Assembly (NCBI GenBank): GCA_900110395.1
Contig: FODP01000012.1
Location: 186,001 to 250,000 of the forward strand
DNA: 64,000 nucleotides
Source of the DNA: Rhodospirillales bacterium URHD0017
Lineage (GTDB): Bacteria; Pseudomonadota; Alphaproteobacteria; Reyranellales; Reyranellaceae
Direction: 5' to 3'
Both the position numbers and the translations under genes were made by a program. Positions 26,842 through 46,468 of the stretch are shown piece after piece (positions within the stretch are counted from its first letter, which is position 1; each line of letters opens with the position of its first letter). The notes below the pieces were generated by a model, which saw only the letters and a program-made list of their open reading frames with translations, did no database searches and had not been told where the DNA came from.

Positions 26842-26857
26842 TAAAACTGCCTTAAAC
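26842..26857 (+). promoter_or_regulatory. TCS1 box A (TAAAACTGCCTTAAAC)
   Basis: One of four copies of a 15-bp motif in this region. It contains two TnAAAC half-sites ten bases apart, the spacing expected for an OmpR-family regulator dimer. It lies 60 bp upstream of the GTG of the response regulator gene and just before a TATGCT stretch, so autoregulation of TCS1 is likely. Confidence 0.6.
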
Positions 26858-26916
26858 TCGCTATGCTTGCCGTAGATGGACAAGCGGCATCTCGGCAGCG
26901 CCGCAAGGTGGCGAAC

Positions 26917-27594
26917 GTGCGGCTCTTGATCATAGAGGATGAAACTCGCATCGCCGAGGTCCTGCGCTCGGCGTTGTCGCGGTCCGGCTTCGCGGTCGAT
27001 GGGGTTCGCCTGTGCGGCGATGCGCGCGCTGCCCTGTCCGTCAATCCCTACGATGCCGTCATCCTCGATCTGGGACTACCCGACGGCGATGGGCTGACGC
27101 TTCTGAAGGAGATGCGGGCACACGGCAATGCCGTTCCCGTCCTTGTATTGACTGCGCGCGACGCCGTGGAAGATCGCGTCGGCGGACTCGACACGGGCGC
27201 CGATGACTACCTGGTCAAGCCGTTTGCCATGAGTGAGGTCATCGCCCGCATCAAGGCGCTCCTGCGTCGGCCGGAAGGCGCACTCGGCGCCACGCTGAGG
27301 AGCGGCAACATCGCCTTCGATACGATCGGGCGCGACGTGCGCATCGGCGAGGCGGTGCTGGTCCTGCCCCGACGCGAGAGCGCCATCCTCGAGCATCTGA
27401 TGCGGCGGGCCGGCCGGGTCGTCCCCAAAGCCGTGTTAGAGGACAAGCTCTACGGCATCGACGACGAACTCGGTTCGAACGCCATCCCCGTCCATGTCCA
27501 TCATCTGCGGCGCAAGCTGATGGATAGAGGTGCCACCGTCGAGATCCACACGGTCCGCGGCGTCGGTTACCTGCTGGTCGACGGCCACGCATGA
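26917..27594 (+). CDS. OmpR-family response regulator (TCS1)
   Basis: A 225-residue regulator. The GTG at 26917 (reads RLLIIEDETRIAEVL) is preferred, with AAGG eight bases upstream and correct domain length; an ATG at 26863 would add a basic tail with no homologue. The receiver domain has the acidic pair in IIEDE, phospho-acceptor D51 (ILDLGLPDGDG), Thr in VLVLTARDA and Lys in YLVKPFAMS. The C-terminal winged helix is complete (HVHHLRRKLMDRG, then HTVRGVGYLL). It is closest in style to QseB/PmrA/TctD. Its stop overlaps the kinase ATG. Confidence 0.92.
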   Translation: MRLLIIEDETRIAEVLRSALSRSGFAVDGVRLCGDARAALSVNPYDAVILDLGLPDGDGLTLLKEMRAHGNAVPVLVLTARDAVEDRVGGLDTGADDYLVKPFAMSEVIARIKALLRRPEGALGATLRSGNIAFDTIGRDVRIGEAVLVLPRRESAILEHLMRRAGRVVPKAVLEDKLYGIDDELGSNAIPVHVHHLRRKLMDRGATVEIHTVRGVGYLLVDGHA

Positions 27595-28994
27595 CCGCGC
27601 CTCGCCTGCATTCGCTGCAGCTTCGCTTGGCGGTGCGGCTGGCGGCGCTTTTCATCGCAGGGTCGGCCGTCATCGTCGGCTTTGTCGTCTGGCGCGCCTA
27701 TGACACGGCCGGCACGCTGGCCGACCGCGAACTCAGCCTGCGCGCCGCCGATCTCGCCCAATATGTCGCGCGCGGTCCGGATGGGACGGCGCAACTGGCG
27801 CTGCCTCCGGCCCTGCGCGAAGCCTATGGCGCAGCGCCGGATGCCGACATTTTCGCCATCCGCGGTCAGGACGGGCGCCTCATCGCCGCCTCGTCCGAGG
27901 CCTTCAGCTCCGTGGTCGAGCGCTGGCCGGCGACGACCGAGCACGCGAGCTATTTCCACCTTCCGGGAATTGCCGGCCGGGCGCAGGATTACTACGGGCT
28001 TGGCGTCAGTATCGACAGCGCCGCTGGTCCGCTGTCGATCTGGGTGGCCCGTGCCGCGGGCGCCTCGGCGCTGGTCCACTCGATGATCGAGGAATTCGTC
28101 TTCGACATTGCCTGGGTCATTCCGCTGTTCATGCTGATGGCGCTCGCCATCGCGATCCTGGCGATCCGCGGTACGCTGAGGCCGATCCGGGACGTGTCGG
28201 AGATCGCCGCCTCGATCGGGCCAAGCACGACATCGGTCCGGCTTCCCCAGGCTGGGCTGCCGAGCGAGATCACGCCGCTGGTCTCGGCAGTGAATCGCGC
28301 CCTCGGCCGCCTCGAGCAAGGCTTCACTGTGCAGCGCCAATTCACCGCCAACGCCGCGCATGAGCTGCGCACGCCGCTCGCGATTGTCACGGGTGCGCTG
28401 GAGAACCTGGACCCGAGCCCCGAAGTCGAGAAACTCAAGACCGACGTCGCCCGCATGAACCGCCTGGTCGCGCAGCTTCTGAGCGTCGCCCGACTGGACG
28501 CCATCGCGCTCGATGTCTCGGGCACCGTCAATCTGAACCAGGTCGCGAGTGAAACCGTCGCAAACCTAGCGCCTTGGGCGCTGGCGCAGGGGCGGACAAT
28601 AGCCTTCCTCGGCGACGATCGACCCGTCGTGGTCGGCGGCAACGCCTATGCCGTCGCCGATGCGCTCCGCAACCTGGTCGAAAACGCGGTCGTCCATGCG
28701 CCGCCGCGCACCGAGATTGCGGTCACCACACGCGCCGACGGCCGTATCGACGTCAGCGACCACGGCCCGGGCGTGCCGGCCGAAGACCGCGAGCGGATCT
28801 TCGAGCGCTTCTGGCGAGGCAAGGCGACGCCTTCGAACGGCGCCGGGCTGGGTCTCGCCATCGTGGTGGAGATCATGAAGGCCCACGGCGGCAAGGTGTG
28901 GGTAGATGCCGCTTCGGATGGCGGCGCTGTCTTCACACTCGCCTTTCAGCCGGCACTGGCCCCCGCTCCGCGGCACTCGATAAAACTGCGTTAA
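27591..28994 (+). CDS. QseC/PmrB-like sensor histidine kinase (TCS1)
   Basis: A 467-residue membrane kinase. TM1 is about residues 13-36, a periplasmic sensor of about 120 residues follows, and TM2 lies at about 165-185 (IPLFMLMALAIAILAI). The H-box is NAAHELRTPLAIVTGALENL with phospho-acceptor H257. The ATPase domain has N-box LVENAVVHAPP and G-boxes DHGPGVPAEDRERIF and GAGLGLAIVVEIM. The ATGA overlap with the regulator shows coupled translation. Neighbouring PepSY, rhodanese and copper-protein genes suggest a periplasmic metal or redox signal (inference). Confidence 0.92.
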   Translation: MTAPRLHSLQLRLAVRLAALFIAGSAVIVGFVVWRAYDTAGTLADRELSLRAADLAQYVARGPDGTAQLALPPALREAYGAAPDADIFAIRGQDGRLIAASSEAFSSVVERWPATTEHASYFHLPGIAGRAQDYYGLGVSIDSAAGPLSIWVARAAGASALVHSMIEEFVFDIAWVIPLFMLMALAIAILAIRGTLRPIRDVSEIAASIGPSTTSVRLPQAGLPSEITPLVSAVNRALGRLEQGFTVQRQFTANAAHELRTPLAIVTGALENLDPSPEVEKLKTDVARMNRLVAQLLSVARLDAIALDVSGTVNLNQVASETVANLAPWALAQGRTIAFLGDDRPVVVGGNAYAVADALRNLVENAVVHAPPRTEIAVTTRADGRIDVSDHGPGVPAEDRERIFERFWRGKATPSNGAGLGLAIVVEIMKAHGGKVWVDAASDGGAVFTLAFQPALAPAPRHSIKLR

Positions 28995-28996
28995 AG
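28981..28996 (+). promoter_or_regulatory. TCS1 box B (TAAAACTGCGTTAAAG), overlapping the kinase stop codon
   Basis: Its first 15 bases are identical to those of box C. The TAA in the middle is also the kinase stop codon, so the site lies across the gene end. It is 60 bp upstream of the rhodanese ATG and points towards it, the same distance as box A to its gene. Confidence 0.6.
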
Positions 28997-29055
28997 GCGC
29001 CGCTTCACCATGGGCACCGACGTACGAGCCCACAATGGTAAAGGGGGATTGCAGG

Positions 29056-29850
29056 ATGAGGCGGAATCGAATTCGTTTGGTCATCGGTATGATGTTGGCG
29101 GGTGCGCTGGCCGCGCCGGCGCAAGCGCAACAGCCATCGGCACAAGGGCCTGCCGCGCCGAGCATCTATCACGGGGTGATCAGCAATTTCGGCAGCGGCC
29201 GTGAGCTCAGCACTGGAGAGCTCCAACAGGTGCTGATGGACTCAACCGCGATCGTCCTCGATGCCAGGCCCTATGAAGAATATGCCGTGAGCCACATCCC
29301 TGGCGCTCGATCGATCCGGGGAAAGCCGGGCACGACGCCGGCGCTATACGTCGCCGATGCCAGCGAGGTCGTGGAAAGCCTGCCGGACCGGAACCAGGCG
29401 CTGGTCCTCTATTGCAATGGGCTCTATTGCGGCCGTAGCGAACGATTTGCCGAGGAGCTGATGAGCTTGGGGTATCGAAACGTCACCAGGTACCAACTGG
29501 GCGCTCCGGGCTGGCGCGCGCTTGGTGGCGTCATGCAAATGGAAAAGCCGGCATTGCTCCGGTTGCTCGGGCAGGACAAGACGTCGGTCCTGATCGACGG
29601 CAGAGCGCGGGCCGACAGCAAGCCGCGCCTCAAAAACGCGGTATGGATACCGCTGCGTGAGGCCTCCAAGGCGAAGGACGACGGGCGGTTGCCCATGACC
29701 GATCACAACACGCGCATCTTTGTGGTCGCCGGCAACGGCCACGAGGCGCGCAACGTGGCCGATGCCATCGTGCGTGACGCCTTTCACAACGTCACTTTCT
29801 TCGACGGCACGATCGCCGACCTGCCGGAGCTGCTGGACGAGGAGTCCTGA
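29056..29850 (+). CDS. Periplasmic tandem rhodanese-domain protein
   Basis: A 264-residue protein from the ATG at 29056 (MRRNRIRLVIGMMLAGALAA); an ATG 21 bases upstream lacks a ribosome site. The signal peptide ends PAQAQQ. The first rhodanese domain has the substrate Asp in IVLDARPYEEYAVSHIPGA and the loop VLYCNGLYCGRSER with catalytic C120. The second domain (VLIDGRARADSKPRLKNAVW) has VAGNGHEAR where the Cys loop should be, so it is inactive. It may carry sulfane sulfur or reduce oxidised protein thiols in the periplasm. Predicted TCS1 target. Confidence 0.88.
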   Translation: MRRNRIRLVIGMMLAGALAAPAQAQQPSAQGPAAPSIYHGVISNFGSGRELSTGELQQVLMDSTAIVLDARPYEEYAVSHIPGARSIRGKPGTTPALYVADASEVVESLPDRNQALVLYCNGLYCGRSERFAEELMSLGYRNVTRYQLGAPGWRALGGVMQMEKPALLRLLGQDKTSVLIDGRARADSKPRLKNAVWIPLREASKAKDDGRLPMTDHNTRIFVVAGNGHEARNVADAIVRDAFHNVTFFDGTIADLPELLDEES

Positions 29851-29877
29851 CGTTGATGAAGAGGCCGGGCCCGCCGA

Positions 29878-30924
29878 TCACTTTGTCGGCGGCACCGGAC
29901 CCGGCGGCAGAACCGGCGCCGTGGCGAAGTCCGGCGGCAGCGGCCCCGTCAGACTTGCCAAGAACGATACGATATCGCCGACGTCCTTGTCCTCGAGCCT
30001 GACGCCGAGCTGAACGCGCGCCATCACCTTCACTGCCTCCGGCAGCGTCGCCACCGAGCCGTCGTGGAAATACGGCGGGGTCATCGCCACGTTCCGCAGG
30101 CTCGCTACCCTGAACATGTAGAGATCCGCGTCGTCGTTGGTGACGTCGGCCCGTCCCTTGTCGATCGGGTCACTCTGGGTGGCCTTCCAATAGTCCTCCA
30201 TCACGCCGAATTTCTGATACATCCCGCCGCCGACGCCGGGGCCGCTGTGGCAGGCGACGCAGCCGACTTCGATGAATTTCGCCAACCCCGCCCGCTCGCC
30301 GGCCGAGAGCGCGTCGACATTGCCTTTGAGATAGTCGTCGAACCGCGATGGCGTCACCAGGGTCCGCTCGAAGGCACCGATCGCAAGCGCCATGTTCCTG
30401 CGGCTGACCGGCTCCGGATCGGCGGGAAAGGCCGACTTGAACAGGGGAGCGTAGCCCGGGAAGCTGTTGACGCGCGCCAACAGCGCCGTTTCGTCGGGCT
30501 GCCCGGATGTAATGGGCAACAGCAGAGACTGGACCACCTGGTCCTCGGCGTCGACCCGGTCCCCGCGCCAGTGGATCACGAACTGCAATGCCGCATTCAA
30601 CACCGACGGCGCGTGACGCGGATGCGGGCGGCTCTTCACGCCAATCGAGCGGGGTCTGCCATCCGTGCCGTAGAGCGCCGGTTGATGACAGGTGACGCAG
30701 CCGACATTTCCATCGATCGAAAAACGTGGATCGAAAAACAGCAACCGCCCCAAGGCCACGCGCTCCGTGGTGACGGGGACCTGTGGCGTCGCCATGTCCT
30801 TGGGCAAGGGTTGGAACAGCGCCTGCGCCTGATTCAGGAGTTCTTTGTCATCCGTCTGGGCGATCGCCGGCAAGCCGGCGAGCAGCATGACCATGCCGGC
30901 CAGGGTGATGCGTATGGTGATCAT
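29878..30924 (-). CDS. Di-haem cytochrome c peroxidase family protein
   Basis: A 348-residue periplasmic protein. The ATG at 30924 is chosen because AAGG lies nine bases upstream, too close to the GTG at 30930. The signal peptide ends GLPAIAQ. Two haem sites are visible, CVTCH (76-80) and CVACH (near 224). The family segments RHAPSVLNAALQFVIHWRGD and FRVASLRNVAMTPPYFHDGS are present. Members reduce H2O2 to water (CcpA) or catalyse MauG-like oxidations. It lies 32 bp after the pseudoazurin gene in the same orientation, and pseudoazurin is a known electron donor to bacterial cytochrome c peroxidase. Confidence 0.92.
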   Translation of the reverse strand: MITIRITLAGMVMLLAGLPAIAQTDDKELLNQAQALFQPLPKDMATPQVPVTTERVALGRLLFFDPRFSIDGNVGCVTCHQPALYGTDGRPRSIGVKSRPHPRHAPSVLNAALQFVIHWRGDRVDAEDQVVQSLLLPITSGQPDETALLARVNSFPGYAPLFKSAFPADPEPVSRRNMALAIGAFERTLVTPSRFDDYLKGNVDALSAGERAGLAKFIEVGCVACHSGPGVGGGMYQKFGVMEDYWKATQSDPIDKGRADVTNDDADLYMFRVASLRNVAMTPPYFHDGSVATLPEAVKVMARVQLGVRLEDKDVGDIVSFLASLTGPLPPDFATAPVLPPGPVPPTK

Positions 30925-30956
30925 GGACACCGCCTTCGCCTATGCTGTGGTGACAT

Positions 30957-31409
30957 CTACTTCAAGGAGGCAAGGAGACTCTCGAGCTTGCTCCTGGCCT
31001 TGCCTGTGAGTGTGCCTGGATCGATCCTGTCGGGGTTGGCAGGTCTTCCGACGACAATGACCGCCACCATTCCCATCGCAGCATGCGGCCGGCAGGCGAC
31101 CACATAGATGCCGGGCACGGTGAAGCTGATCTTCACGTCCTGGTTCATCCTGCCCTCGAAGGGCCGAGCGCCCTCGGGAATCATGCCGGGCACGGAGTGA
31201 ACTTCGTGACCCTTGTCGACCGCAACGAAGCTGATCGAATCGCCAGGCTCGATGCGCACCAGTTCGGGCGAGAAGACGAAGACGGCGCCGCTCGGGCCTC
31301 GATTGAGCGCCGTCACCTCGATCTCCCCGGCGAGCGCATCGGGCGATGGGCCCGATGCGAACCCCAAAGCGAGAAGCAGTGGTAAGATGGATACGCCCGT
31401 CGTTTTCAT
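30957..31409 (-). CDS. Pseudoazurin-like cupredoxin
   Basis: A 150-residue blue-copper protein. The start is placed at the ATG at 31409; another ATG 12 bases upstream is possible. A signal peptide is evident. The type 1 copper ligands are all present: H68 (DKGHEVHSVPGMIPEGA) and C106, H109 and M114 (YVVACRPHAAMGMVAVIVVG), matching pseudoazurin. The last 30 residues also follow the family helix. It probably delivers electrons to the peroxidase encoded just downstream. Its promoter carries the TCS2-type direct repeat. Confidence 0.9.
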   Translation of the reverse strand: MKTTGVSILPLLLALGFASGPSPDALAGEIEVTALNRGPSGAVFVFSPELVRIEPGDSISFVAVDKGHEVHSVPGMIPEGARPFEGRMNQDVKISFTVPGIYVVACRPHAAMGMVAVIVVGRPANPDRIDPGTLTGKARSKLESLLASLK

Positions 31410-31473
31410 GTCTGGTGTCATCCCTGGCGTCGTGCCGATCCTGCCAGCGGATTGTGAGAACGCGACGAGCGCT

Positions 31474-31494
31474 CGATGAGAAAGCGATGAGAAA
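31474..31494 (-). promoter_or_regulatory. TCS2-type direct repeat in the pseudoazurin promoter
   Basis: Two perfect CGATGAGAAA repeats separated by one base (11-bp period) on the plus strand, followed by CTTGCTT. The repeat is centred about 75 bp upstream of the pseudoazurin ATG, a typical activator position. The surrounding 71 bp (31431-31501) align without gaps to 50511-50581 in front of a jelly-roll gene and the TCS2 regulator. Confidence 0.7.
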
Positions 31495-31525
31495 CTTGCT
31501 TGCCGGGACGCCGCGCGACTTACGG

Positions 31526-31819
31526 CTAGTCGTCGTCGTCACCGTCATTGTCGGCGAGGCGTCCGGTCTGCGCGTCAACCAGGACCTTGCCGGTCTTGCC
31601 GTCCTTCGATCCCAGGGCCTCGAAGAAGCGGCCCTGGCGGATGATCTGGACGTTCGCGTAGCCGTCCGATTGCAGCTTCTCCCGGACCTCGGCTTCGGTC
31701 ACGGGTTGGTCACCGGCGATGAACACTGCGCCTCTCGGCTGAGCCGTCGCGATCAGGACGCCGGTCGTTGCAACGAGCATGGTGCCCCCGAGCAGGGCCG
31801 CAGTAAGTCGACGCTTCAT
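31526..31819 (-). CDS. Small exported PepSY-like protein
   Basis: A 97-residue protein with GGAGG six bases before the ATG. The signal peptide is about 27 residues (LLGGTMLVATTGVLIATAQ). The mature part is one PepSY-like unit (TEAEVREKLQSDGYANVQI, then GKTGKVLVDAQTGRLADN) and ends in a run of Asp (DNDGDDDD). Such proteins are commonly controlled by neighbouring two-component systems and may act as periplasmic metal or protease modulators. Predicted TCS1 target by box D. Confidence 0.82.
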   Translation of the reverse strand: MKRRLTAALLGGTMLVATTGVLIATAQPRGAVFIAGDQPVTEAEVREKLQSDGYANVQIIRQGRFFEALGSKDGKTGKVLVDAQTGRLADNDGDDDD

Positions 31820-31865
31820 GAGTTCCTCCCGTGAACGTAACGACTGCGTCAGGGAACATCCGGGA

Positions 31866-31881
31866 TTTAACGCAGCGTTAA
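31866..31881 (-). promoter_or_regulatory. TCS1 box D, upstream of the PepSY-like gene
   Basis: On the minus strand it reads TTAACGCTGCGTTAAA, sharing CTGCGTTAAA with boxes B and C. It is 47 bp upstream of the ATG and points towards the gene like the other three boxes. The left arm is varied so that the site is also a palindrome (TTAACG-CAG-CGTTAA on the plus strand). Confidence 0.55.
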
Positions 31882-32011
31882 GTCCGTGAAGTCCACGCCG
31901 CGGCGCTCCGGCATAGCGCCGTCATAGGAAATTCGGGGCGAGGTCCCGATCACACTATTCACGATACCAATGGATAGTTGTGGGTGCGTCTGGACGGCCT
32001 ATGTCCCGCTT

Positions 32012-32248
32012 ATGCGTACCCTTCTTTTAACTGCCATCCTTCTTGCGGCCAGTATTGGTGGGCACGGCTTCATCGGCATGCCACCGGGCTCCATCGGCAA
32101 TGGCGCTCGAATGCCACAAACAATGTCACCGGGCGCATTGCCGCCCCCGCCCATGATTTCCGCACCGTCGGAGCGGATGCCTGCGTCCGACGGCGCACGC
32201 TATCCCGACACCGAGACCTTCACCCACGACAACGCCCCGGAGCGGTAG
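32012..32248 (+). CDS. Possible small secreted Pro/Met-rich protein
   Basis: A 78-residue frame starting MRTLLLTAILLAASIGGHGF, a plausible signal peptide. The rest is Pro, Met and Gly-rich (PPGSIGNGARMPQTM, GALPPPPMISAP), a composition seen in some metal-binding periplasmic peptides. There is no clear ribosome site, and an ATG at 31970 would add 14 residues. It may be a real gene or a chance frame. Confidence 0.35.
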   Translation: MRTLLLTAILLAASIGGHGFIGMPPGSIGNGARMPQTMSPGALPPPPMISAPSERMPASDGARYPDTETFTHDNAPER

Positions 32249-32263
32249 CACCGCGGCCCTTGG

Positions 32264-32279
32264 TAAAACTGCGTTAAAC
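32264..32279 (+). promoter_or_regulatory. TCS1 box C (TAAAACTGCGTTAAAC)
   Basis: The first 15 bases are identical to box B 3.3 kb away. It lies 42 bp upstream of the ATG of the PepSY/DUF1259/propeller operon and points towards it. Confidence 0.6.
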
Positions 32280-32320: not shown

Positions 32321-32833
32321 ATGCGACAGAATCGGATTCTCAGCATCGCCGCCGCGGCGGCCCAGCTTCTGGTTGGCTCGCCCTCTTGGGCCGAGGAGGA
32401 GATGAACCCGGCCGCCATGGCCAAGGCGCTGCAGCAAGCAACGCTTCCCCTTGAGAAGGCGACCAAGGTCAGCGAGCGCGAAGGCAAGCCTATTTCGGCC
32501 AAGTACGAAATCGAAAACGGCGCCCTGCAATTGTCGATCTACACGATGAAGGGCGACCGTTTCAGCGAACTCATCGTCGACCACAACTCAGGCGCTGTGG
32601 CGAAGGACCAGTGGATCACAGAGGGCGACGATCTGAAGGCAGCGCAGGCGCAGTCAGCCGCCATGGCCAAGGCGAAGACGACACTCGATGTCGCCACCGA
32701 GAACGCCGTCAAGGCCAACCCCGGCTATCGCGCCGTCAGCATCGTGCCGAAGCTGGAAGGCGGTCGTCCAACCGCCCTCGTCATCCTGATGAAGGGCGAG
32801 GACGTCAAGAAAGCAAACGAGAAGCTCGATTGA
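32321..32833 (+). CDS. Exported PepSY-domain protein
   Basis: A 170-residue protein. The ATG at 32321 has GGAGG eight bases upstream and is preferred over a GTG nine bases earlier. A signal peptide ends PSWAEE. The first PepSY-like unit covers about residues 30-100 (ISAKYEIENGALQLSIYTMK, then FSELIVDHNSGAVAKDQWIT). A helical region and a second beta stretch (YRAVSIVPKLEGGRPTALVI) follow. It is the first gene of a three-gene operon (gaps of 11 and 39 bp) behind box C. Confidence 0.82.
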   Translation: MRQNRILSIAAAAAQLLVGSPSWAEEEMNPAAMAKALQQATLPLEKATKVSEREGKPISAKYEIENGALQLSIYTMKGDRFSELIVDHNSGAVAKDQWITEGDDLKAAQAQSAAMAKAKTTLDVATENAVKANPGYRAVSIVPKLEGGRPTALVILMKGEDVKKANEKLD

Positions 32834-32844
32834 GGAGGATCACC

Positions 32845-33744
32845 ATGCATCCGATCGCTCGTCTTGCCATACCCGTGGTTGCCGCCGTTGCGCTGACCAC
32901 GCCAGCCTTCGCCGCCGAACCGGACTGGAACCACGTCGCCGAGGCCTTGGGCAAATCCGGCGCCGTGCAGGCAGGCGGCGTCTATCGCGTGGGCTTCCCG
33001 CGCACCGACCTCAAAGTATCGCTCGATGGCGTTGCGCTGCGGACCGGCTTTGCCTTCGGCGGCTGGGTCGCCTTCCAGCCGATGGACGCGCAGGCCATGG
33101 TCATGGGCGACCTCGTGCTGACACAGGACGAGGTGAGCCCGGTCATGCGCAAGCTCGAAGAGGGCGGCATCGAGATCACCGCGTTGCACAATCACCTGCT
33201 GCGCGCCGAGCCCATGACGCTCTACATGCACATCGAGGGCCATGGCGATCCGGTCAAGCTGGCGGGCGCGATCCACGCCGGCCTCGCGCTCAGCAAGACG
33301 CCTTTCGCACCACCGCCAGGGACATCAACGCCCGCCAATATCGACATGATCGGCATCGACCGCATCATGGGTTACTTCGGGCAGGACAACGGTGGCATCT
33401 ATCAGTTCGGCGTTCCTCGCGCCCAGCCGGTCACCGATCAGGGCATGGCTCTGCCCGGTGCCATGGGCGCGGCGATCGCCGTTAATTTCCAACCCACGGG
33501 CTTCGACACGGCAGCCATCACCGGTGACTTCGTTCTGCTCGCGAGCGAGGTCAATCCGGTGATCAAGGCCATGCAGGCCAACGGCATCGAGGTCACCGCC
33601 CTGCACAGCCATATGCTCGACGAACAGCCGCGATTGTTCTTCCTGCACTTCTGGGCCAATGACGACGCGCGCAAGCTCGCCACGGGGTTACGCGCCGCCC
33701 TCGACAAGGTGGACGTCAGGAAGGACGCCGCCAGCGCGCGTTAG
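32845..33744 (+). CDS. DUF1259 (LppY/LpqO-type) exported protein
   Basis: A 299-residue protein with GAGGAGG before the ATG and a signal peptide ending TTPAFAAEP. It consists of two homologous halves. Each has a GDFVL/GDLVL strand, an EVxPVM/I helix, and an HNH-like or HSH-like motif (ITALHNHLL; VTALHSHML) that looks like a metal site. Each half closes with a strand such as MTLYMHIEGHG or RLFFLHFWAND. DUF1259 proteins are periplasmic or lipidated and of unknown role; they often occur beside two-component systems and PepSY genes. Confidence 0.88.
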   Translation: MHPIARLAIPVVAAVALTTPAFAAEPDWNHVAEALGKSGAVQAGGVYRVGFPRTDLKVSLDGVALRTGFAFGGWVAFQPMDAQAMVMGDLVLTQDEVSPVMRKLEEGGIEITALHNHLLRAEPMTLYMHIEGHGDPVKLAGAIHAGLALSKTPFAPPPGTSTPANIDMIGIDRIMGYFGQDNGGIYQFGVPRAQPVTDQGMALPGAMGAAIAVNFQPTGFDTAAITGDFVLLASEVNPVIKAMQANGIEVTALHSHMLDEQPRLFFLHFWANDDARKLATGLRAALDKVDVRKDAASAR

Positions 33745-33783: not shown

Positions 33784-34773
33784 ATGAAGCGCATGATGAC
33801 CGTTGCGGCCTTGATCGGCATGGCGCTCGCAACGCCGAGCCGGGCGGCGGACCCCTCGCCGCTGGTCCTCGAAGCGAAGATCCCGCTCGGCACGGTGAGC
33901 GGCCGCATCGATCACTTGGCCTTCGACCCGGATCGGCAACTCCTGTTCGTCGCCGAGCTTGGCAATGACAGCGTGGCTGTGGTCGACCTGAAAGAGCGCA
34001 ACGTCGTGCACCGCATTCCGGGGCTGAGCCAGCCGCAGGGGGTCGCCTACCATGCCGCCAGCGGGACGCTCTATGTCGCCAACGCAGGCGATGGATCGTT
34101 GCGCCTGTTCCAGGCATCCGATTTCGCGCCGCTCGGCCGTATCGAGCTTGGTGCGGATGCCGACAATGTCCGCATCGATCCGTGGCGCAACCGCGTCATC
34201 GTCGGCTACGGCAGGGGTGGGCTAGCCGTGATCGACCCGGCGAGCTGGCGCAAGGTCGCCGACATGCCGCTGGACGGCCATCCCGAGAGCTTCCAGTTCG
34301 ACGAGACGGGCGCGCGGATCTTCGTCAACGTCCCCGATGCTCCCCGGATCGTGGCCCTCGACGCCGTTTCGGGCCGGCAAGTCACGATCCTGGAGAGCGC
34401 AGGAGCGGGCGCCAACTTTGCAATGGCCGTCGATGCCGACGCCCATCGCGTGATCAGCGCCTTCCGCAATCCTGCCCGGCTCGTGGCCTTTGCGACCGGG
34501 ATCGGCACTCGGGAGGCGAGCCTCGAGACGTGCCGCGATGCCGATGATGTATTCGTCGATGCACGGCGCCGTCGCCTGTACGTAAGCTGCGGCGAAGGCG
34601 TGATCGACGTCGTTGCCCAGGCGAGCGGCGGATACGAGCGGATCGCCCGCATCCCGACCGTACCCGGCGCACGCACCTCGCTCTTCGTGCCCGCGACCGA
34701 CCGGCTTTATCTCGCTGTGCGGGCGACCGCTTCGGAGCCGGCGGCGATCTGGGTGTTGCGGCCGCAACCATGA
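33784..34773 (+). CDS. Exported YncE-like beta-propeller protein
   Basis: A 329-residue protein with a signal peptide (ALIGMALATPSRAADP). It shows repeated propeller blades with the pattern hydrophobic-FDP-x(3)-hydrophobic-FVAE (HLAFDPDRQLLFVAELGNDS; VAYHAASGTLYVANAGDGS; VRIDPWRNRVIVGYGRGG). Relatives are periplasmic six- or seven-bladed propellers of unclear role, some linked to metal homeostasis. It is the last gene of the box C operon and is convergent (3-bp gap) with the DMT transporter. Confidence 0.82.
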   Translation: MKRMMTVAALIGMALATPSRAADPSPLVLEAKIPLGTVSGRIDHLAFDPDRQLLFVAELGNDSVAVVDLKERNVVHRIPGLSQPQGVAYHAASGTLYVANAGDGSLRLFQASDFAPLGRIELGADADNVRIDPWRNRVIVGYGRGGLAVIDPASWRKVADMPLDGHPESFQFDETGARIFVNVPDAPRIVALDAVSGRQVTILESAGAGANFAMAVDADAHRVISAFRNPARLVAFATGIGTREASLETCRDADDVFVDARRRRLYVSCGEGVIDVVAQASGGYERIARIPTVPGARTSLFVPATDRLYLAVRATASEPAAIWVLRPQP

Positions 34774-34776
34774 TCG

Positions 34777-35832
34777 TCAATGGCGATGGCGATGGTGTTC
34801 GTCCGGCGTGTGGTGATGGGCATGTTCGAGCGGCGCGTGCCGATGCTGATGGGCGTGCGGTTCGCCGACGGGCTCGGACGGTCCGTGATCGTGCCGATGG
34901 TGCTCGTCGTGCGTGTGCGCATGCTCATGCTCCATGGGGTCATGTACGTGGACGTGTTCATGATGCTCAGTGATGTGGAGCCAGACACCCACGGCCATGA
35001 GCGCTGCGGCGACGAGGAGCTGAGCGGTCACCGGCTCGCCGAGCGCGAGCACGGCGGCTGCGGCCCCAAAGAACGGCGCCGTCGAGAAGTAGGCGCCCGT
35101 CCGCGCTGCCCCGAGATGGCGCAGCGCCAGCACGAAGAGCGCCAGGCTGGCGCCGTAGCCCACCATGCCGACAAGTCCGGCCAAGGCGATCGGGCCGGGC
35201 CCCGGCAGGGCACCTCCCATCCATAACCCCAACGCAATGTTGCAGGGACCGGCGATAAGCCCCTTCAGCTCGACGATCTGCAGGGGATCGGCAAGCGAGA
35301 CCTTGCGCGTGAGATTGTTGTCGAGTCCCCAGGCGACGCAGGCGCTGACGATCGCGAGCGGCCCGATCAGGCTCGAGAGCGTCGGCTGTTCCGACCACGA
35401 CAGGGCCGCCGCACCTGCAACCAGGCACGCCATGCCAAGAGCGATCCGCCGGTCGAAATTCTCATGGAAGATGAACCAGGCCATGAGCGCTGTTGCCACC
35501 CCTTCCAAGGTCAGCATCAACGAGGCCGTGCCCGCCTCTGTGCGTGTGAGGCCAAGCATCAGCAGAAGCGGCCCGACGACGCCGCCGGCAATGATCGCTC
35601 CCGCGAGCCAAGGCAAATCCACGGGGCGCAGGGCGGCTTCCCGCGCGCCATGGGCGGTAGGCAACGAGCGTACCGAGCGACGGAAGACGGCGGCCCCGAG
35701 GCCCGCCCCGCAATAGAGCAGGCCAGCCAGAACCGCGGGATCGGTCAGGCCAACAAGCACCTTTGCGGCAGGCGTCGACACGCCGAACAACAGGGCGGAC
35801 AGCAGGGCGTAGATGACGGGTCTTGCGCTCAT
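34777..35832 (-). CDS. EamA/DMT-family transporter with a histidine-rich C-terminal tail
   Basis: A 351-residue membrane protein with ten hydrophobic segments in two EamA repeats (first MSARPVIYALLSALLFGVST; second near GPLAIVSACVAWGLDNNLTR). After the last helix (about residue 285) comes a tail of about 66 residues holding 26 histidines plus many Asp and Glu, expected to bind Ni, Co, Zn or Cu. DMT members export small metabolites, and some with His tails export metals or metal complexes. It lies 36 bp downstream of the MFS gene and may end the chrB operon. Confidence 0.88.
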   Translation of the reverse strand: MSARPVIYALLSALLFGVSTPAAKVLVGLTDPAVLAGLLYCGAGLGAAVFRRSVRSLPTAHGAREAALRPVDLPWLAGAIIAGGVVGPLLLMLGLTRTEAGTASLMLTLEGVATALMAWFIFHENFDRRIALGMACLVAGAAALSWSEQPTLSSLIGPLAIVSACVAWGLDNNLTRKVSLADPLQIVELKGLIAGPCNIALGLWMGGALPGPGPIALAGLVGMVGYGASLALFVLALRHLGAARTGAYFSTAPFFGAAAAVLALGEPVTAQLLVAAALMAVGVWLHITEHHEHVHVHDPMEHEHAHTHDEHHRHDHGPSEPVGEPHAHQHRHAPLEHAHHHTPDEHHRHRH

Positions 35833-37160: not shown

Positions 37161-37796
37161 CTACAGCGCGGACTGGTAGGTGAAATCGTCGAACGCCGTG
37201 ACGCTGTCCGCCTTGGTCCACACGCCGACCGCACCCGGCCCGCCGATGTGGCTGTCGTCCAGTTCGATGTAGGCCTTGCCATCCAGGAGAACGCGGATGT
37301 GCGTGCCCTTGAACTCGACGCGCAGCGTGTGCCAGGCGTTGCCCGGCACGGGCGCGTCGACATACTTGATGGTCCGGCGGCCGCCGCGCTCGGTGTAGTA
37401 GAGCGAGACGTTGTTCTCGAGCGCATTGGCCCGCGCGACGTAGTAGTTGTCGCCGTCCTTCCAACGCCATACCACGCCGCCCGCCTGGTCTTCGCGACCG
37501 GTCAACGGCTTGAACTTCACTTCGACGACGCCGTCGGCCAGCGCGGTGCCCTGCTTCACGCACCAGGGAAAGGCGCCTTTGCCGGATTGTTTCAGTACGT
37601 TGGGTGCGCTGGGAGCACCCGCATCGGCCTCGACCGCCCAGCGCGGCGCACCGCCGCCGGTGCTGCCGCACACCCAGCCGGCCGGCAGGGCGCCTGCCGG
37701 ATCGCGATCAAAGCCGACGGTCTCCGCCTGGGCGGCGGTGGCGAGTGCCGCCATCGCCGCGCCCGCAACGATCTTTGCCATGGTCGCTCCCATCAT
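37161..37796 (-). CDS. Secreted jelly-roll protein 1 (DUF1080/LamG-like)
   Basis: A 211-residue exported protein; the ATG at 37796 overlaps the SOD stop by 4 bp. The signal peptide ends ATAAQAE. The mature domain is a concanavalin A-like jelly-roll, with EVKFKPLTGREDQAGGVVWR, NYYVARANALENNVSLYYTE, WHTLRVEFKGTHIRVLLDGK and AVGVWTKADSVTAFDDFTY. It shares these blocks with the genes at 47483 and 49827. DUF1080 relatives act on 3-keto-sugars, but the active site is not obvious here. Its role beside SOD and chromate genes is unknown. Confidence 0.82.
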   Translation of the reverse strand: MMGATMAKIVAGAAMAALATAAQAETVGFDRDPAGALPAGWVCGSTGGGAPRWAVEADAGAPSAPNVLKQSGKGAFPWCVKQGTALADGVVEVKFKPLTGREDQAGGVVWRWKDGDNYYVARANALENNVSLYYTERGGRRTIKYVDAPVPGNAWHTLRVEFKGTHIRVLLDGKAYIELDDSHIGGPGAVGVWTKADSVTAFDDFTYQSAL

Positions 37797-38488
37797 GTTT
37801 CCCTGGAATAGCGCTCGAACAGCGACTGGGCATTGCTCCAGCGGATGCCCTGCATGAAGCTGTCGACGTAGGCTGCGGCGCGCGCGCCGTAGTCCATGTG
37901 GTAGGCGTGCTCGTACATGTCGAGCGCGAGGATCGGTCGGCCATTTGCCAACGTCATGGTATGGTCGGCCGCCCAGGTGTTGATCAGCCGCTTGTCGCGT
38001 GGCGAATAGCTCAGCAGCACCCAGCCCGAGCCGCCGCCCAGCGCCTTGCCGGTGGCCGAGAACTCGGCCTTCCAGCGGGCGAGCGATCCAAAGTCGCGGT
38101 TGATCGCATCGGCCAGCGCACCCGTCGGGTCGCCCTCGCCGGCGAGGCTGTCGAAGTAGAGTTCGTGGATGATCATGGAGTTGGCGGCGATCAGCTCCTC
38201 GCGCTTCAGCCCGTTGACCACAAAGACCGGCGCGTTCGCCATGTCGAGGCTCGCGAGCTGAGCGGAAATGGCGTTGAGCCGCTTCACCGCGCCCGAGTAG
38301 TTGTTCTCGTAGTGGCTGACCAGCAGCTTCTCCGACAGGCCTTTGATCTTGGCCGGATCGAACGGCAGCTTCTTGATGGCGTATTCCGTCTTGGGCGCGC
38401 CCTGGGCGAGCGCGTCGGCGGCGGTGGCGGCGAGGGCGACGCCAGCAGCAATGGCGATGAAATCACGGCGGTTCTGCGCGATGGTCAT
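37793..38488 (-). CDS. Exported Fe-SOD-like protein (ChrC-like)
   Basis: A 231-residue protein from the ATG at 38488, with AAGGAG six bases upstream. The N-terminus NRRDFIAIAAGVALAATAAD is a Tat signal. All four SOD metal ligands are present: H59 (SHYENNY), H108 (IIHELYF), D190 and H194 (LDMYEHAYHMDYG). The second-sphere Gln/His position is H176 (AADHT), and the gateway Tyr of classical SOD is replaced by Ala. Such proteins occur as ChrC in chromate operons. It follows chrA by 60 bp and precedes the jelly-roll gene with overlap. Confidence 0.88.
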   Translation of the reverse strand: MTIAQNRRDFIAIAAGVALAATAADALAQGAPKTEYAIKKLPFDPAKIKGLSEKLLVSHYENNYSGAVKRLNAISAQLASLDMANAPVFVVNGLKREELIAANSMIIHELYFDSLAGEGDPTGALADAINRDFGSLARWKAEFSATGKALGGGSGWVLLSYSPRDKRLINTWAADHTMTLANGRPILALDMYEHAYHMDYGARAAAYVDSFMQGIRWSNAQSLFERYSRET

Positions 38489-38548
38489 GGAAGTCTCCTT
38501 GGGTTGGAAACGCGTGTCGTCAGTCCTCCCCGTCATTCAGATTTGTCG

Positions 38549-39949
38549 TCAGGCCGCGCCCATGGCGAGGTAGTAGGCCATGCCGGTCAACGCACTCGCG
38601 AGCAGCACGGGAATCATGCCGAGCTTGAAGCGGAAGATCGCCACCGCCGCGGCAACGGCCAGCACCGCCGACGGAATGTCGAGCGAGGACAGGATCGGCG
38701 CGCTGAAGCTCGCGCCGAATACTGTCACTGGCACGAGTTTGGCGAACAGCACATGGAGCGCGAACCAGACCGCGAGGTTCAGGATGACGCCGACCACCGC
38801 GGCGGTGATGGCGCCGAGCGCCGCGCCCAGCGCCTTGTTGGCGCGCAATGCCTCGACGAACGGCGCGCCGAAGAAGATCCAGAGGAAGCAGGGCACGAAC
38901 GTCACCCAGGTGGTGAGCAGCCCGCCCAGCGTCGCCGCCAGCAGCGGCGGCAGCCCGCCGGGCTCGCGCCAGGCCGCGAGGAAGCCCACGAACTGCGTCA
39001 CCATGATCAAGGGACCCGGTGTGGTCTCGGCCATGCCCAGACCATCCAGCATCTCGCCCGCCGTCACCCAGTGGTAGTTGTCGACGGCCTGCTGGGCGAC
39101 GTAGGCCAGCACGGCATAGGCGCCGCCGAACGTCACGATCGCCATCTTGCTGAAGAAGATCGCGATCTGGGTGAAGACGTTGTCGCCGCCCAGGCCGACG
39201 TAGAGGACCGCGAGCGGCACCAGCCAGAGGGCGAGGAACACCGCGGCGACCGACAGAGACCAGCGCAGGTTCGGCCGGGCGTGTTGGGGTGTCTCCTCGC
39301 CCAGCAGGGAATCGCGGTCGGCGACCTGGCGGTCACCGACCTTGCCGTGGCCACCGGCGCTCAGGAAAGGCTGCAGCCCGGCACGGCCCGCCACGTAGCC
39401 GATGGCGCCGGCGCCGAAGACGATGATGGGGAACGGCACGTCGTAGAAGAAGATCGCGACGAACGACACCGCGGCCAGGGCCACCATGACGTTGTTCTTG
39501 AGCGCGCGCTTGCCGACGCGCAGCACGGCCTCGATGACGATCACCAGGACGGCGGCCTTCAGCCCGAAGAACAGGCCCTCGATCGCCGGGACCTTGCCGA
39601 ACAGCACGTAGATCCAGGAAAGCGCCATGATGGCGAGCAGGCCCGGCAATACGAACAGCGTCCCGGCAAACAGGCCGCCCTTGGTCTTGTGCATCAGCCA
39701 GCCGATGTAGATCGCGAGCTGCTGCGCCTCGGGGCCCGGCAACAGCGTGCAGTAGTTCAGGGCCTGCAAGAAGCGGTTCTCGCCGATCCACTTCTTCTCC
39801 TCGACGATGATGCGATGCATCACCGCGATCTGGCCGGCCGGGCCGCCGAACGACAGCGCCGCCACGCGCGCCCAGACTTTCATGGCATCGCCGAACGGGA
39901 CGCCGTGCGCCGGGACGTCGTGAGGCTGTGTTGCTGTCATGTCACTCAT
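38549..39949 (-). CDS. chrA: Chromate transporter ChrA (long-chain type)
   Basis: A 466-residue membrane protein with two homologous halves. The N-terminal half opens VWARVAALSFGGPAGQIAVM and contains the LLPGPEAQQLAIYIGWLMHK motif. The C-terminal half contains FSKMAIVTFGGAYAVLAYVA and GLGMAETTPGPLIMVTQFVG. These FGG and PGP motifs define the CHR family. ChrA expels chromate from the cytoplasm. The ATG (AGGA eight bases upstream) overlaps the chrB stop by 4 bp. Confidence 0.95.
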   Translation of the reverse strand: MSDMTATQPHDVPAHGVPFGDAMKVWARVAALSFGGPAGQIAVMHRIIVEEKKWIGENRFLQALNYCTLLPGPEAQQLAIYIGWLMHKTKGGLFAGTLFVLPGLLAIMALSWIYVLFGKVPAIEGLFFGLKAAVLVIVIEAVLRVGKRALKNNVMVALAAVSFVAIFFYDVPFPIIVFGAGAIGYVAGRAGLQPFLSAGGHGKVGDRQVADRDSLLGEETPQHARPNLRWSLSVAAVFLALWLVPLAVLYVGLGGDNVFTQIAIFFSKMAIVTFGGAYAVLAYVAQQAVDNYHWVTAGEMLDGLGMAETTPGPLIMVTQFVGFLAAWREPGGLPPLLAATLGGLLTTWVTFVPCFLWIFFGAPFVEALRANKALGAALGAITAAVVGVILNLAVWFALHVLFAKLVPVTVFGASFSAPILSSLDIPSAVLAVAAAVAIFRFKLGMIPVLLASALTGMAYYLAMGAA

Positions 39950-40935
39950 TGTGTCGTCCTGAAGTATTCGTATAGGTCGTCGAGCACGGCGGCGCCGCGC
40001 GCCAGGCGGTCCTCGTCGTCGCGATGTGCCGCGGCGATGCCTGACATCACGGTCCGGATGCCCGCCGTCTCCTCACGGGCGTACTTGCCGTCCTTGAGGT
40101 CGATGTCGTGGATGATCTCGCCGATCGCGGCCAGCGCCGGATCGTCGATGCCGGCGCGCAGCAGCAGCACCTCGAAGGTGCAGCGGTCGCCCTCATGGGT
40201 GTACTCGCCCTCGAACATGTCGAAGCGCACCTCGCCCGCACGCGGCACGTAGCTGCGGCCGGGCACAAACTTGAAGCGCGCCGACGAATCGATGAAGCGG
40301 CGGATCAGCCACGCCGAGGCGATGCGATCGATCTGCACATGCTCGCGCGTGACCCAGATCTTGGCGCCCATGCCGGGCGGCGCCGTTCCTGCCTGTCCAG
40401 TGGGCTGTCCTGCGGTCATGGTTTCACTCCCTTGGCTCAGCCGGTGCTCGAGACCCGCGATCCGCTGCTCGGCGGCCTCTCGTCCGTCCGCTTCGAAAAA
40501 ATCGATGGCTGCGACCTCACTCAATTGCTTGCGCAGCCGTCCCGTCTGGTTGGCGATGTCGCCGAGCTCCGAGTCGGAAGCATCGCCGGCGAGGCGCGCC
40601 GCGAGGCCATCCGCCTCCTTGGTGAGGCCCGCGTAGTCCTCGTTGCGCGTCGCCACGAACATGCGCCGCAGCTCGCTATCGTCCAGGCCCTCGACCAGCT
40701 CGGCCTCGCAGACCAGCGCCTCGCCGCCCAGCTCGACGATCTCCCGGGCGAGCCAGGCGAAGTCCTCCTGCGTCTCCTCGTTAAAAGGCAGCGCATAGAC
40801 AGCGTTCTTCACGATCACCGCCCCCAGCGCCTGGAGCCGCCGCCATACCTTGACCCGGGCATAGGCCGGCTTGGCCGGCAGCTGGTGAATCAGCAGCAGC
40901 CACGGCGCCTTGGTGACGATTTCGCCAGCGTTCAT
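39946..40935 (-). CDS. chrB: Chromate-sensing regulator/resistance protein ChrB
   Basis: A 329-residue protein. Residues 1-180 form the ChrB N-terminal domain (APWLLLIHQLPAKPAYARVK, then NAVYALPFNEETQEDFAWLA) and are helical and charged. Residues ~190-329 are the ChrB C-terminal domain (KIWVTREHVQIDRIASAWLI, then FDMFEGEYTHEGDRCTFEVL). In characterised systems ChrB represses or activates the chr operon in response to chromate. It is the first gene of the leftward operon, and its start faces the SOD-rhodanese operon across 116 bp, so it probably controls both. Confidence 0.93.
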   Translation of the reverse strand: MNAGEIVTKAPWLLLIHQLPAKPAYARVKVWRRLQALGAVIVKNAVYALPFNEETQEDFAWLAREIVELGGEALVCEAELVEGLDDSELRRMFVATRNEDYAGLTKEADGLAARLAGDASDSELGDIANQTGRLRKQLSEVAAIDFFEADGREAAEQRIAGLEHRLSQGSETMTAGQPTGQAGTAPPGMGAKIWVTREHVQIDRIASAWLIRRFIDSSARFKFVPGRSYVPRAGEVRFDMFEGEYTHEGDRCTFEVLLLRAGIDDPALAAIGEIIHDIDLKDGKYAREETAGIRTVMSGIAAAHRDDEDRLARGAAVLDDLYEYFRTTQ

Positions 40936-40988: not shown

Positions 40989-41017
40989 TTGCGCAATGCC
41001 GGTGACAAGCCTATATG
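40989..41017 (+). promoter_or_regulatory. Candidate sigma-70-type promoter for the rightward island operon
   Basis: TTGCGC at 40989-40994 and TATATG at 41012-41017 are separated by exactly 17 bases, 35 bp upstream of the first rightward ATG. The gap 40936-41051 is much AT-richer than its surroundings and holds loosely symmetric arms (TACCACACGTCAAAT and ATTTTGCAACACATGTA) that could be a ChrB site; their symmetry is poor. Confidence 0.45.
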
Positions 41018-41051
41018 GCCGATGAAACGACTGTATCACGGAGAAGTTGCC

Positions 41052-41996
41052 ATGACCTTCAAAGCCAAGCCGATCGCCTTCAAGCCGGGCCGCCTGAACG
41101 GGTTGAGCGTGCGCCTGATCGCCAGCCACTACGAGAACAACTACGGCGGCGCGGTCCGCCGGCTGAACGCCATCAAGGCCGACCTCGCCAAGCTGCAGGT
41201 CGCCGCGGCGCCCGGCTTCATCGTGAACGGGCTGAAGCGCGAGGAGCTGATCGCGACCAACTCCATGCTGCTGCACGAGCTCTACTTCGACGGGCTGGGC
41301 GGCGGCGGCGGCCTGCCCGACGGCGCGCTGGCTGAGGCGATCGCCCGCGACTTCGGCTCGGTCGAGCGCTGGCGCGAGGAATTCATGGCGATGGGCCGCG
41401 CGCTGGGCGGCGGCTCGGGCTGGGTGGTGCTGACGCGCTCGCCGCGCGACGGCACGCTCACCAACGTCTGGCAGGCCGATCACACGCACGGCCTCGCCGG
41501 CGGCACGCCGATCCTGGCGCTCGACATGTACGAGCACTCCTATCATCTCGACTTCGGCGCCAATGTCGGGGCGTACATCGACGCCTTCATGGCGAACCTG
41601 CACTGGGCCCGGATCGCCGAGCGCTTCGCGGGTTCGGCAAGCCCGTGGCGCAGCGAGGAGATGATCTCACCCGACGCGGCCCGGCAACGACTGGAAAGCG
41701 AACCCGACCTGGTGGTGATCGACGCGCGGCTCGACGCCGACGCGACCATGATCCCGCTCGGCTTCCGCGGCGCGCGCCGTGCCCCGCCCGACAAGGTCGA
41801 GGCGATCGCGGCCGCGCTGCCCAAGGGCAGCAAGGCCCTCGTGTACTGCGCCTGGGGCTTCGAGATCGGCAGCGACGCCGCGGCCAAGCTGCGCGAACGG
41901 GGTATCGACGCTGTCGCGGTCGCCGGCGGCCTCGGCAGCTGGCGCGCCGACGGCCATCCCACCGAACCCCTCAAGGAAGAAGGAGACAAGGCATGA
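41052..41996 (+). CDS. Fe-SOD-like/rhodanese fusion protein 1
   Basis: A 314-residue cytoplasmic protein with GGAG eight bases before the ATG. Residues 1-195 are an Fe-SOD domain with all metal ligands: H26 (SHYENNY), H75 (LLHELYF), D158 and H162 (LDMYEHSYHLDFG); H144 is at the Gln/His position. Residues ~205-305 are a rhodanese domain with the Asp of VVIDARLDAD and catalytic C266 in VYCAWGFEIG. In chromate operons ChrC (SOD) and ChrE (rhodanese) are normally separate proteins, so this looks like a ChrC-ChrE fusion. It is the first gene of the ten-gene rightward operon. Confidence 0.9.
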   Translation: MTFKAKPIAFKPGRLNGLSVRLIASHYENNYGGAVRRLNAIKADLAKLQVAAAPGFIVNGLKREELIATNSMLLHELYFDGLGGGGGLPDGALAEAIARDFGSVERWREEFMAMGRALGGGSGWVVLTRSPRDGTLTNVWQADHTHGLAGGTPILALDMYEHSYHLDFGANVGAYIDAFMANLHWARIAERFAGSASPWRSEEMISPDAARQRLESEPDLVVIDARLDADATMIPLGFRGARRAPPDKVEAIAAALPKGSKALVYCAWGFEIGSDAAAKLRERGIDAVAVAGGLGSWRADGHPTEPLKEEGDKA

Positions 41997-42448
41997 AGTG
42001 GGTAACCCGTGAGCGGCCGAAGATCGACCGCATTGCCTGCCCGTGGCTGATCCAGCGCTTCGTCGAGAAGCAGCCGGAGTTCCTCTACGTGCCGGCCAAC
42101 GAGGTGCTGGCGACGGCCGAGAAGACCGGCGCCATCCCCTACGACATCCCGGGCGTGAAGTTCAGCCATGTCGGCGAGAAGTGCAGCTTCGATGCCTTCA
42201 TCGCCGAGTACAAGCTCGACGCGCCGGGGCTCGACAAGCTGGCCGACATCGTGCGCGGCGCCGACACCTCGCGGCTCGATCTCACGCCGCAGAGCCACGG
42301 CCTGTTCGCGATCTCGCTCGGCCTCAGCCACGTCTACCAGGACGACCACGAGATGCTGAAGCACGGCATGGTGATGTACGACGCGCTCTACTCGTGGTGC
42401 CGCCACCTGGTCGGCGAGACGCACAACTGGCCACCCAAGATGGAGTGA
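41993..42448 (+). CDS. Stand-alone ChrB C-terminal domain protein
   Basis: A 151-residue protein whose ATG overlaps the fusion gene stop by 4 bp. It is homologous to the second half of chrB only: KWVTRERPKIDRIACPWLIQ, then FSHVGEKCSFDAFIAEYKLD, then LDLTPQSHGLFAISLGLSHV. The DNA-binding-type N-terminal half is absent. Conserved Cys and His residues (IACPW, KCSF) suggest metal or oxyanion sensing, or an enzymatic role in resistance. The partner is probably the SOD-rhodanese protein it is coupled to. Confidence 0.88.
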   Translation: MKWVTRERPKIDRIACPWLIQRFVEKQPEFLYVPANEVLATAEKTGAIPYDIPGVKFSHVGEKCSFDAFIAEYKLDAPGLDKLADIVRGADTSRLDLTPQSHGLFAISLGLSHVYQDDHEMLKHGMVMYDALYSWCRHLVGETHNWPPKME

Positions 42449-46446: not shown

Positions 46447-46468
46447 GTCTCCCAGAAAGGATCCCGCC

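Follow-up and report, generated by a model that had tools for sequence, protein, structure and literature searches.

In the 64,000-nucleotide stretch of contig FODP01000012.1 of Rhodospirillales bacterium URHD0017 analysed here (positions 186,001 to 250,000; hereafter, the window), four copies of a 15-bp direct-repeat box precede the genes of a two-component system and of three neighbouring transcription units. This box is very probably the binding site of the response regulator encoded at 26917, which would by this means control a local regulon of four promoters. Judged from sequence, the targets are chromate-resistance accessory genes situated beside an island that contains chrA, chrB and superoxide dismutase (SOD) genes, a context absent from the preliminary description of this DNA. 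Chromate is the signal that we somewhat favour for the system. The boxes and the two regulatory genes are as follows.

26842..26856, plus strand: box 1, 1 mismatch; predicted promoter of the regulator-kinase operon (putative autoregulation); faces the regulator in most orthologous loci
28981..28995, plus strand: box 2, 0 mismatches; predicted promoter of the rhodanese gene; overlaps the kinase stop codon
31866..31880, minus strand: box 3, 2 mismatches; predicted promoter of the small PepSY-like gene; kept in loci L033-L036
32264..32278, plus strand: box 4, 0 mismatches; predicted promoter of the PepSY/DUF1259/propeller operon; kept in loci L033-L036
26917..27594, plus strand: response regulator of the OmpR family, PmrA/QseB-like (Pfam, NCBIfam, tree); recognition helix SNAIPVHVHHLRRKL
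27591..28994, plus strand: sensor histidine kinase (2CSK_N, HisKA and HATPase_c, with HAMP just under its cut-off); two transmembrane segments and a periplasmic loop of about 139 aa (hydropathy)

Mismatches were counted against the motif TAAAACTGCSTTAAA, the reversed motif serving as control. A scan of the window finds the four boxes that had been described, at 26842 (plus), 28981 (plus), 31866 (minus) and 32264 (plus). Every box points to a gene, the start codon being 60 bp away for the regulator (GTG at 26917), 63 bp for the rhodanese gene (ATG at 29059), 46 bp for the small gene (ATG at 31819) and 42 bp for the gene of a 170-aa protein (ATG at 32321). The rhodanese gene also has an in-frame ATG at 29035, 39 bp from the box. 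The 3' end of the kinase gene runs into box 2, which contains the TAA stop codon of that gene. Boxes 2 and 4 are identical, as already noticed, and the similarity of the rhodanese and PepSY promoters (28965-28995 and 32248-32278) reaches 16 bp 5' of the box (31 nt, 87%), perhaps reflecting a duplicated promoter.

With up to three mismatches, four sites are observed in the window versus 0.11 expected, a number reached in none of 100 shuffles. The genome scan that had been suggested was also carried out (8,179,139 bases, 62 contigs). At up to two mismatches it returns these four boxes only (reversed motif: 2), so that the copies are confined to this cluster, and the scattering over random positions that had been named as a reason for doubt was not seen. 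At up to three mismatches there are 18 sites in the genome versus 43 for the reversed motif, and the other 14 therefore look like background. A genome-wide regulon was rejected, since three-mismatch sites are not in excess over the control.

The boxes are conserved within the genus, which is probably Reyranella. Four other genomes of the genus (L033-L036) also have them, at the promoters orthologous to those of the regulator gene, the small gene and the operon of PepSY and DUF1259. Regulator orthologs (E<=1e-93) occur in five of 65 genomes of the genus, and a box scan of 61 genomes finds at least two sites close together in the same five; the remaining 56 include 18 in which all sites are isolated. 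The isolated boxes at L037-L042 (other genomes, or a second contig of G012) have no homolog of the cluster genes beside them and were counted as background. R. soli (L033) possesses all four boxes, the rhodanese gene included. The rhodanese gene and its box occur together in two of the five genomes and are both absent (box within three mismatches) from the other three (L034-L036); a decayed box-like sequence, read by eye, is found behind the kinase gene of L034.

In L033-L036 the small gene is divergent from the PepSY/DUF1259 operon, and their boxes are 34-35 bp apart from start to start, whereas the same pair is separated by 398 bp in the window, with an open reading frame between. The extra sequence of about 360 bp (31881-32263) contains a small proline-rich exported frame whose best match outside its own genome has an E of 0.57. 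Two relatives show altered target genes: the boxed PepSY gene of G005 (L035:10140-10217) is a short remnant that matches only the C-terminal 26 residues, its promoter box being kept, and the propeller gene of G032 (L034:11502-12487) is split over two frames, by either a real frameshift or an assembly error.

A second lineage with this arrangement is found in the Caulobacteraceae. The contig of an uncultured Phenylobacterium (L071), reached via DUF1259, codes for a regulator 65% identical to that of the window, and its boxes precede the regulator gene, the DUF1259 gene and a third gene, for a lipoprotein-like product that is 26% identical to the 170-aa protein along part of its length. Three of the four sites with up to two mismatches in that genome are located at this locus. 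A regulator search of 299 Caulobacteraceae genomes (E<=1e-85) detected orthologs in six, Phenylobacterium included, and all six ortholog loci, five found via the regulator and one via DUF1259, have a box within the stretch. The box also precedes a SOD gene in L213 (tblastn) and an ArsC-like/SOD/propeller set in L214 and L215 (SOD and propeller by tblastn, the other names by eye). In a sample of 398 genomes of the phylum (E<=1e-88), regulator orthologs were limited to the window's own genome and one genome of the same class, with coordinates identical to G490.

The presence of the box follows that of the regulator. Among the 80 DUF1259 loci kept as the closest of 176 found, all 12 boxes (up to three mismatches) belong to four regulator-bearing loci and none to the other 76; hits of the reversed motif are scattered over 12 loci. 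Less similar regulators (52-64% identity, 20 loci, stretches of 9.6-17 kb) are accompanied by no box with up to three mismatches and by none of the scanned TTAA-N7-TTAA variants. These controls are the 20 fetched of 24 matches (G107, G335, G238 and G332 were left out) and include two same-genome paralogs. The ten box regulators form one clade with support 99/98; L215, nearly equal to L214, was excluded from the tree and from the table of 28 boxes. The recognition helix SNA[IV]PVHVHHLRRKL is present in all ten, and PVHVHH in none of the 20 controls. This footprinting across genomes links the box to this regulator, rather than to any other regulator or to the target genes by themselves, and the local regulon proposed in the preliminary description is upheld.

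Some observations weigh against a strict correspondence between box, regulator and targets. The regulator box of L035 is four mismatches off and was entered in the table by eye, a box within three mismatches faces the regulator in five of the six Caulobacteraceae loci and is missing from L216, and one control regulator of the 20 (L153) also has the HxH residues. The cupredoxin and MauG genes that come after the box 3 gene were not found in the stretches of the four relatives L033-L036.

Beyond this clade, the idea of a motif general to the Alphaproteobacteria was rejected, sites with at most one mismatch being present in 110 of 385 class genomes and control counts being similar by eye, among the matches listed. 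A phage or mobile origin of the box was also set aside; exact matches to viral contigs are one per contig among the matches listed, which is uninformative. Another alphaproteobacterial genome has two adjacent one-mismatch box-like sites 21 bp apart (G451:C1:2563237-2563272).

The genes behind the boxes and those of the neighbouring chromate island are listed below.

29059..29850, plus strand: exported protein with two rhodanese domains (Pfam)
29878..30930, minus strand: di-haem cytochrome c peroxidase / MauG (Pfam); may share the box 3 transcript
30957..31421, minus strand: cupredoxin (Pfam); may share the box 3 transcript
31526..31819, minus strand: small exported PepSY_2-like protein (weak match, Pfam E 0.03, below cut-off)
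32321..32833, plus strand: 170-aa exported protein with two PepSY-like halves in its model (Pfam PepSY E 0.069, below cut-off)
32845..33744, plus strand: DUF1259 (LppY/LpqO) protein, ChrL-type (PF07485, E 5.3e-89; chr linkage of relatives)
33784..34773, plus strand: beta-propeller protein, ChrK-like by fold class and context, without comparison to ChrK itself
37793..38536, minus strand: exported Fe/Mn SOD, ChrC-type; no box in the window
38549..39949, minus strand: chromate transporter ChrA (TIGR00937, 210.2 bits versus a cut-off of 171.7; PF02417); no box
39946..40935, minus strand: ChrB regulator, ChrB_N and ChrB_C (PF20229, PF09828); no box
40989..41996, plus strand: SOD - ChrE-like rhodanese fusion, the rhodanese part below the ChrE cut-off
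41993..42448, plus strand: stand-alone ChrB_C protein (Pfam)

Both the small gene and the first gene of the operon had been called PepSY. Their products are exported, and the matches to PepSY are weak for both, with Pfam scores of 13.9 bits (170-aa protein) and 14.8 bits (small protein) versus a cut-off of about 24. The AlphaFold2 model of the 170-aa protein (mean predicted local distance difference test score, pLDDT, of 86.1) has two similar alpha/beta halves, and its fold search gives a single PDB match with E<=0.001, 4exr, which is weak (TM 0.40-0.44). Published work is cited here by PMC number. The tandem PepSY protein UipA binds uranyl (PMC8963506).

The window contains a chromate determinant, its locus encoding both the ChrA transporter and ChrB, and the DUF1259 protein is linked to chr genes as expected of ChrL. 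The chr island (37.8-49.1 kb) comprises ChrA, ChrB, a lone ChrB_C, the exported SOD and three SOD-rhodanese fusions. Among the DUF1259 loci, 72 of 80 contain chr core genes, as do 54 of the 55 that span at least 12 kb; such genes are also present in six of the ten clade loci versus none of the 20 control-regulator loci. In G032 and G005 the ChrA-ChrB-SOD set directly adjoins the regulator operon. Loss of ChrL (LppY/LpqO family) or of the WD40-type ChrK noticeably lowers the chromate resistance of Arthrobacter FB24, whose chrL is up 37-95-fold at 0.005-0.1 mM Cr(VI) (PMC2751784); in Cupriavidus, chrL is the last gene of the chrBACF-cep operon (PMC7060636).

Several facts count against a tight link with chromate. 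Four of the ten clade loci (L033, L071, L212 and L216) have no chr core gene in the stretch; that of L071 is only 5 kb long and those of L212 and L216 are 14 kb, and L033 (R. soli) has chr genes further along the contig, a ChrB pair being located about 8-10 kb from the regulator. The scan of the window with up to three mismatches detected no box at its chrA, chrB and SOD genes, indicating that the core chromate genes do not belong to the box regulon here. ChrB_C is found in 58 of the 65 genomes of the genus and the regulator in five. Since most of the genus has ChrB_C without the regulator, the latter is dispensable for the chr locus and the system appears to be an optional layer. RND and CDF/CsoR-like metal genes, named by eye, are near some Caulobacteraceae loci, and for this reason the signal may be another metal or an oxidative stress.

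That the boxes and the regulator are rightly paired and the signal is something other than chromate (a trivalent or other metal, copper, or a general oxidative stress of the envelope) is a real possibility, if not a probable one. Besides these metal genes, the cupredoxin and MauG peroxidase genes behind the box 3 gene point in this direction, as does the fact that the Caulobacter system UzcRS responds to U, Zn and Cu (PMC8963506). The periplasmic loop of the kinase, about 139 aa in the window by hydropathy, measures only about 25 aa in four Caulobacteraceae kinases (L212, L213, L215 and L216). Direct ligand binding in the loop is consequently not general to the clade, and the sensed signal may be indirect. 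However, the target genes and their neighbours are those of chromate determinants, and the authors of the Arthrobacter work describe the chr genes as hardly or not at all induced by lead, arsenate or H2O2 (PMC2751784). Their table still gives 12.5 for chrL with H2O2 and 5.3 for chrB-Cterm with arsenate (PMC2751784).

Over 28 boxes from ten genomes the core of the box is TAA..CTGCS.TAAA. The half-sites had been placed ten bases apart; this has to be corrected to a period of 11 bp, and TTAA-N7-TTAA with one mismatch recovers the same four sites of the window. The box would overlap the -35 region, as expected of an activator site, a prediction based on a -10-like hexamer (xAxxxT) that begins 10 bp past the box in 11 of the 28 sites, no other offset occurring in more than three. 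A box over the -35 with a -10 at such a distance is the layout of a PhoB/PmrA-type activator. The count of 11 was reached in none of 5000 shuffles in an offset permutation test, a figure that is optimistic since orthologous promoters are not independent. The uneven distribution of the hexamer tells against this layout: it is found at nine of 17 Reyranella boxes and only two of 11 Caulobacteraceae boxes, and in the window at two of the four boxes, those of the rhodanese and PepSY promoters. A generic sigma-70 scan detected no promoter at the boxes.

The location of the box at the -35 place, with a fixed distance to the hexamer in those 11 sites, would also suit an extended promoter element of an alternative sigma factor. 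This is very unlikely, because a direct repeat of 11-bp period that goes with a single clade of response regulators, and with their recognition helix, is what marks an OmpR-family site. In addition, no sigma factor was recognised by eye in the open reading frames listed beside the regulator, the family search having covered only some of them.

In Ochrobactrum tritici, ChrB controls the chr promoters (PMC3817168), and a ChrB gene is located 13 kb away in the window. ChrB could thus be imagined as the protein that binds the boxes, the two-component genes being mere targets, a proposal that we consider highly improbable. A ChrB match exists in 65 of the 80 DUF1259 loci, yet boxes occur only in the four that have the regulator; in the genus, likewise, clustered boxes are restricted to the five regulator-bearing genomes. 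The proposed ChrB site is, moreover, an imperfect inverted repeat, unlike the direct repeat of the box (PMC3817168). ChrB was rejected as the box-binding protein, since the box tracks the response regulator and not ChrB.

Two identical copies with similar upstream stretches might suggest a short repeat element devoid of any regulator, which is next to inconceivable given the 0.11 sites expected in the window, the conservation of the box over two alphaproteobacterial families despite differing flanks, and the joint presence or absence of the rhodanese gene and its box in five genomes.

The binding of the regulator to the boxes, with activation of its own operon and three others, can be inferred from these comparisons, and the following mechanism is proposed. 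The adjoining kinase would phosphorylate the regulator, which would occupy, as a head-to-tail dimer, a pair of (C)TTAAA-type half-sites with an 11-bp spacing. As the site would overlap the -35, and a -10-like element follows 10 bp further on at many of the promoters, transcription would most likely be activated as it is by PmrA and PhoB. The predicted targets are its own operon, the periplasmic rhodanese, the small PepSY-like protein, together perhaps with the cupredoxin and MauG peroxidase encoded behind it, and the operon of the PepSY-like protein, the ChrL-type DUF1259 protein and the propeller. The regulon would be local, no other genomic site standing out, and the system would constitute an optional, envelope-directed layer on the chr locus. 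Its input would, more likely than not, be chromate or the damage that chromate causes in the envelope, and the PepSY-like proteins could be auxiliary sensors or metal binders.

In its widest form, a view for which the chances seem evenly balanced, chromate determinants of two alphaproteobacterial families would have gained a dedicated PmrA-type system with a private 15-bp operator. This system would supply an extracytoplasmic input in addition to ChrB and would switch on an envelope module (rhodanese, PepSY-like proteins, ChrL and ChrK-like propeller) that meets chromate or its reduced products outside the cytoplasm. The grouping of the ChrL, ChrK-like and PepSY-like proteins in one compact regulon under one envelope sensor would imply that they act jointly in chromate resistance.

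Among known systems, PmrA/PmrB (BasR/BasS) of Enterobacteria resembles the one described here in having an OmpR-family regulator and a direct repeat with an 11-bp period. The window genes have the organization of an OmpR/PhoB-family two-component system, with a receiver, a winged-helix effector and an adjoining HisKA/HATPase kinase. The regulator scores 226.1 bits with the NCBIfam PmrA equivalog (cut-off 330) and 219.5 bits with QseB (cut-off 345), close to QseB in sequence and below both thresholds. The targets of PmrA are lipid A genes, whereas those found here are chromate-type accessory genes. By sequence, the closest solved structures are those of BasR (PmrA), and the HVH of the regulator aligns with the HIH of BasR. 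According to PMC3973317, His193 and His195 of Klebsiella pneumoniae PmrA probably determine its base specificity, and these histidines are kept as HVH in the box regulators.

The regulator promoters at loci L071, L212 and L213 have CTTAAA-N5-CCTAAA, which resembles the natural PmrA site CTTAAT-N5-CCTAAG. The box described here differs from the PmrA box in the conserved spacer CTGCS and in the last half-site base, its TAAA-type half-sites ending in A rather than in the G or T of the PmrA consensus (YTTAAK-type with a 5-bp gap), quoted as (C/T)TTAA(G/T)-N5-(C/T)TTAA(G/T) in PMC10729948. The likeness to QseB/PmrA-type regulators that had been proposed holds for PmrA, with a spacing of 11 bp (PMC3973317), and not for QseB, since the published QseB consensus (PMC10729948) is, by eye, unlike the box. 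UzcRS of Caulobacter crescentus is also an alphaproteobacterial metal-responsive two-component system, compared here by description and not by protein sequence; its site, CATTAC-N6-TTAA, has a 10-bp period by our own count and lies in 44 of 57 binding regions genome-wide (PMC8963506), in contrast to 11 bp and four local sites here.

The Cupriavidus (chrBACF-cep-chrL) and Arthrobacter FB24 (chrJKL) determinants share with this locus ChrA, ChrB, SOD (ChrC), a ChrE-like rhodanese, a ConA-like exported protein (cep-like), ChrL (DUF1259) and a ChrK-like propeller; a dedicated two-component system with its own box is not mentioned in the available portions of those reports. The OmpR-family regulator SO2426 of Shewanella oneidensis, the loss of which raises chromate sensitivity, is the nearest report to chromate-linked two-component regulation among the literature matches listed. 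It differs in being a CpxR-like orphan without an adjacent kinase, and the affected genes centre on iron acquisition (PMC2535785). Among the matches listed in a literature search covering mainly non-subscription papers, no precedent was found for a chromate determinant with a dedicated two-component system. The regulator-operator pair, with a recognition helix that covaries with the box, is a new member of the PmrA-like group, and the box provides a candidate promoter part for chromate biosensing.

Other features of the region can be mentioned. The single chromate island contains three differing Fe/Mn SOD - ChrE-like rhodanese fusions (40989-41996, 46460-47470 and 48143-49099); the Cupriavidus operon, as listed in PMC11647585, has chrC and chrE as two distinct genes. 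On the far side of the island there is a second two-component system (50634-52710) with no box nearby, whose regulator forms a long distant branch of the tree. An EamA transporter with a long His-rich tail (34777-35832) adjoins the regulon and is also divergent from the regulator in G046 (L036).

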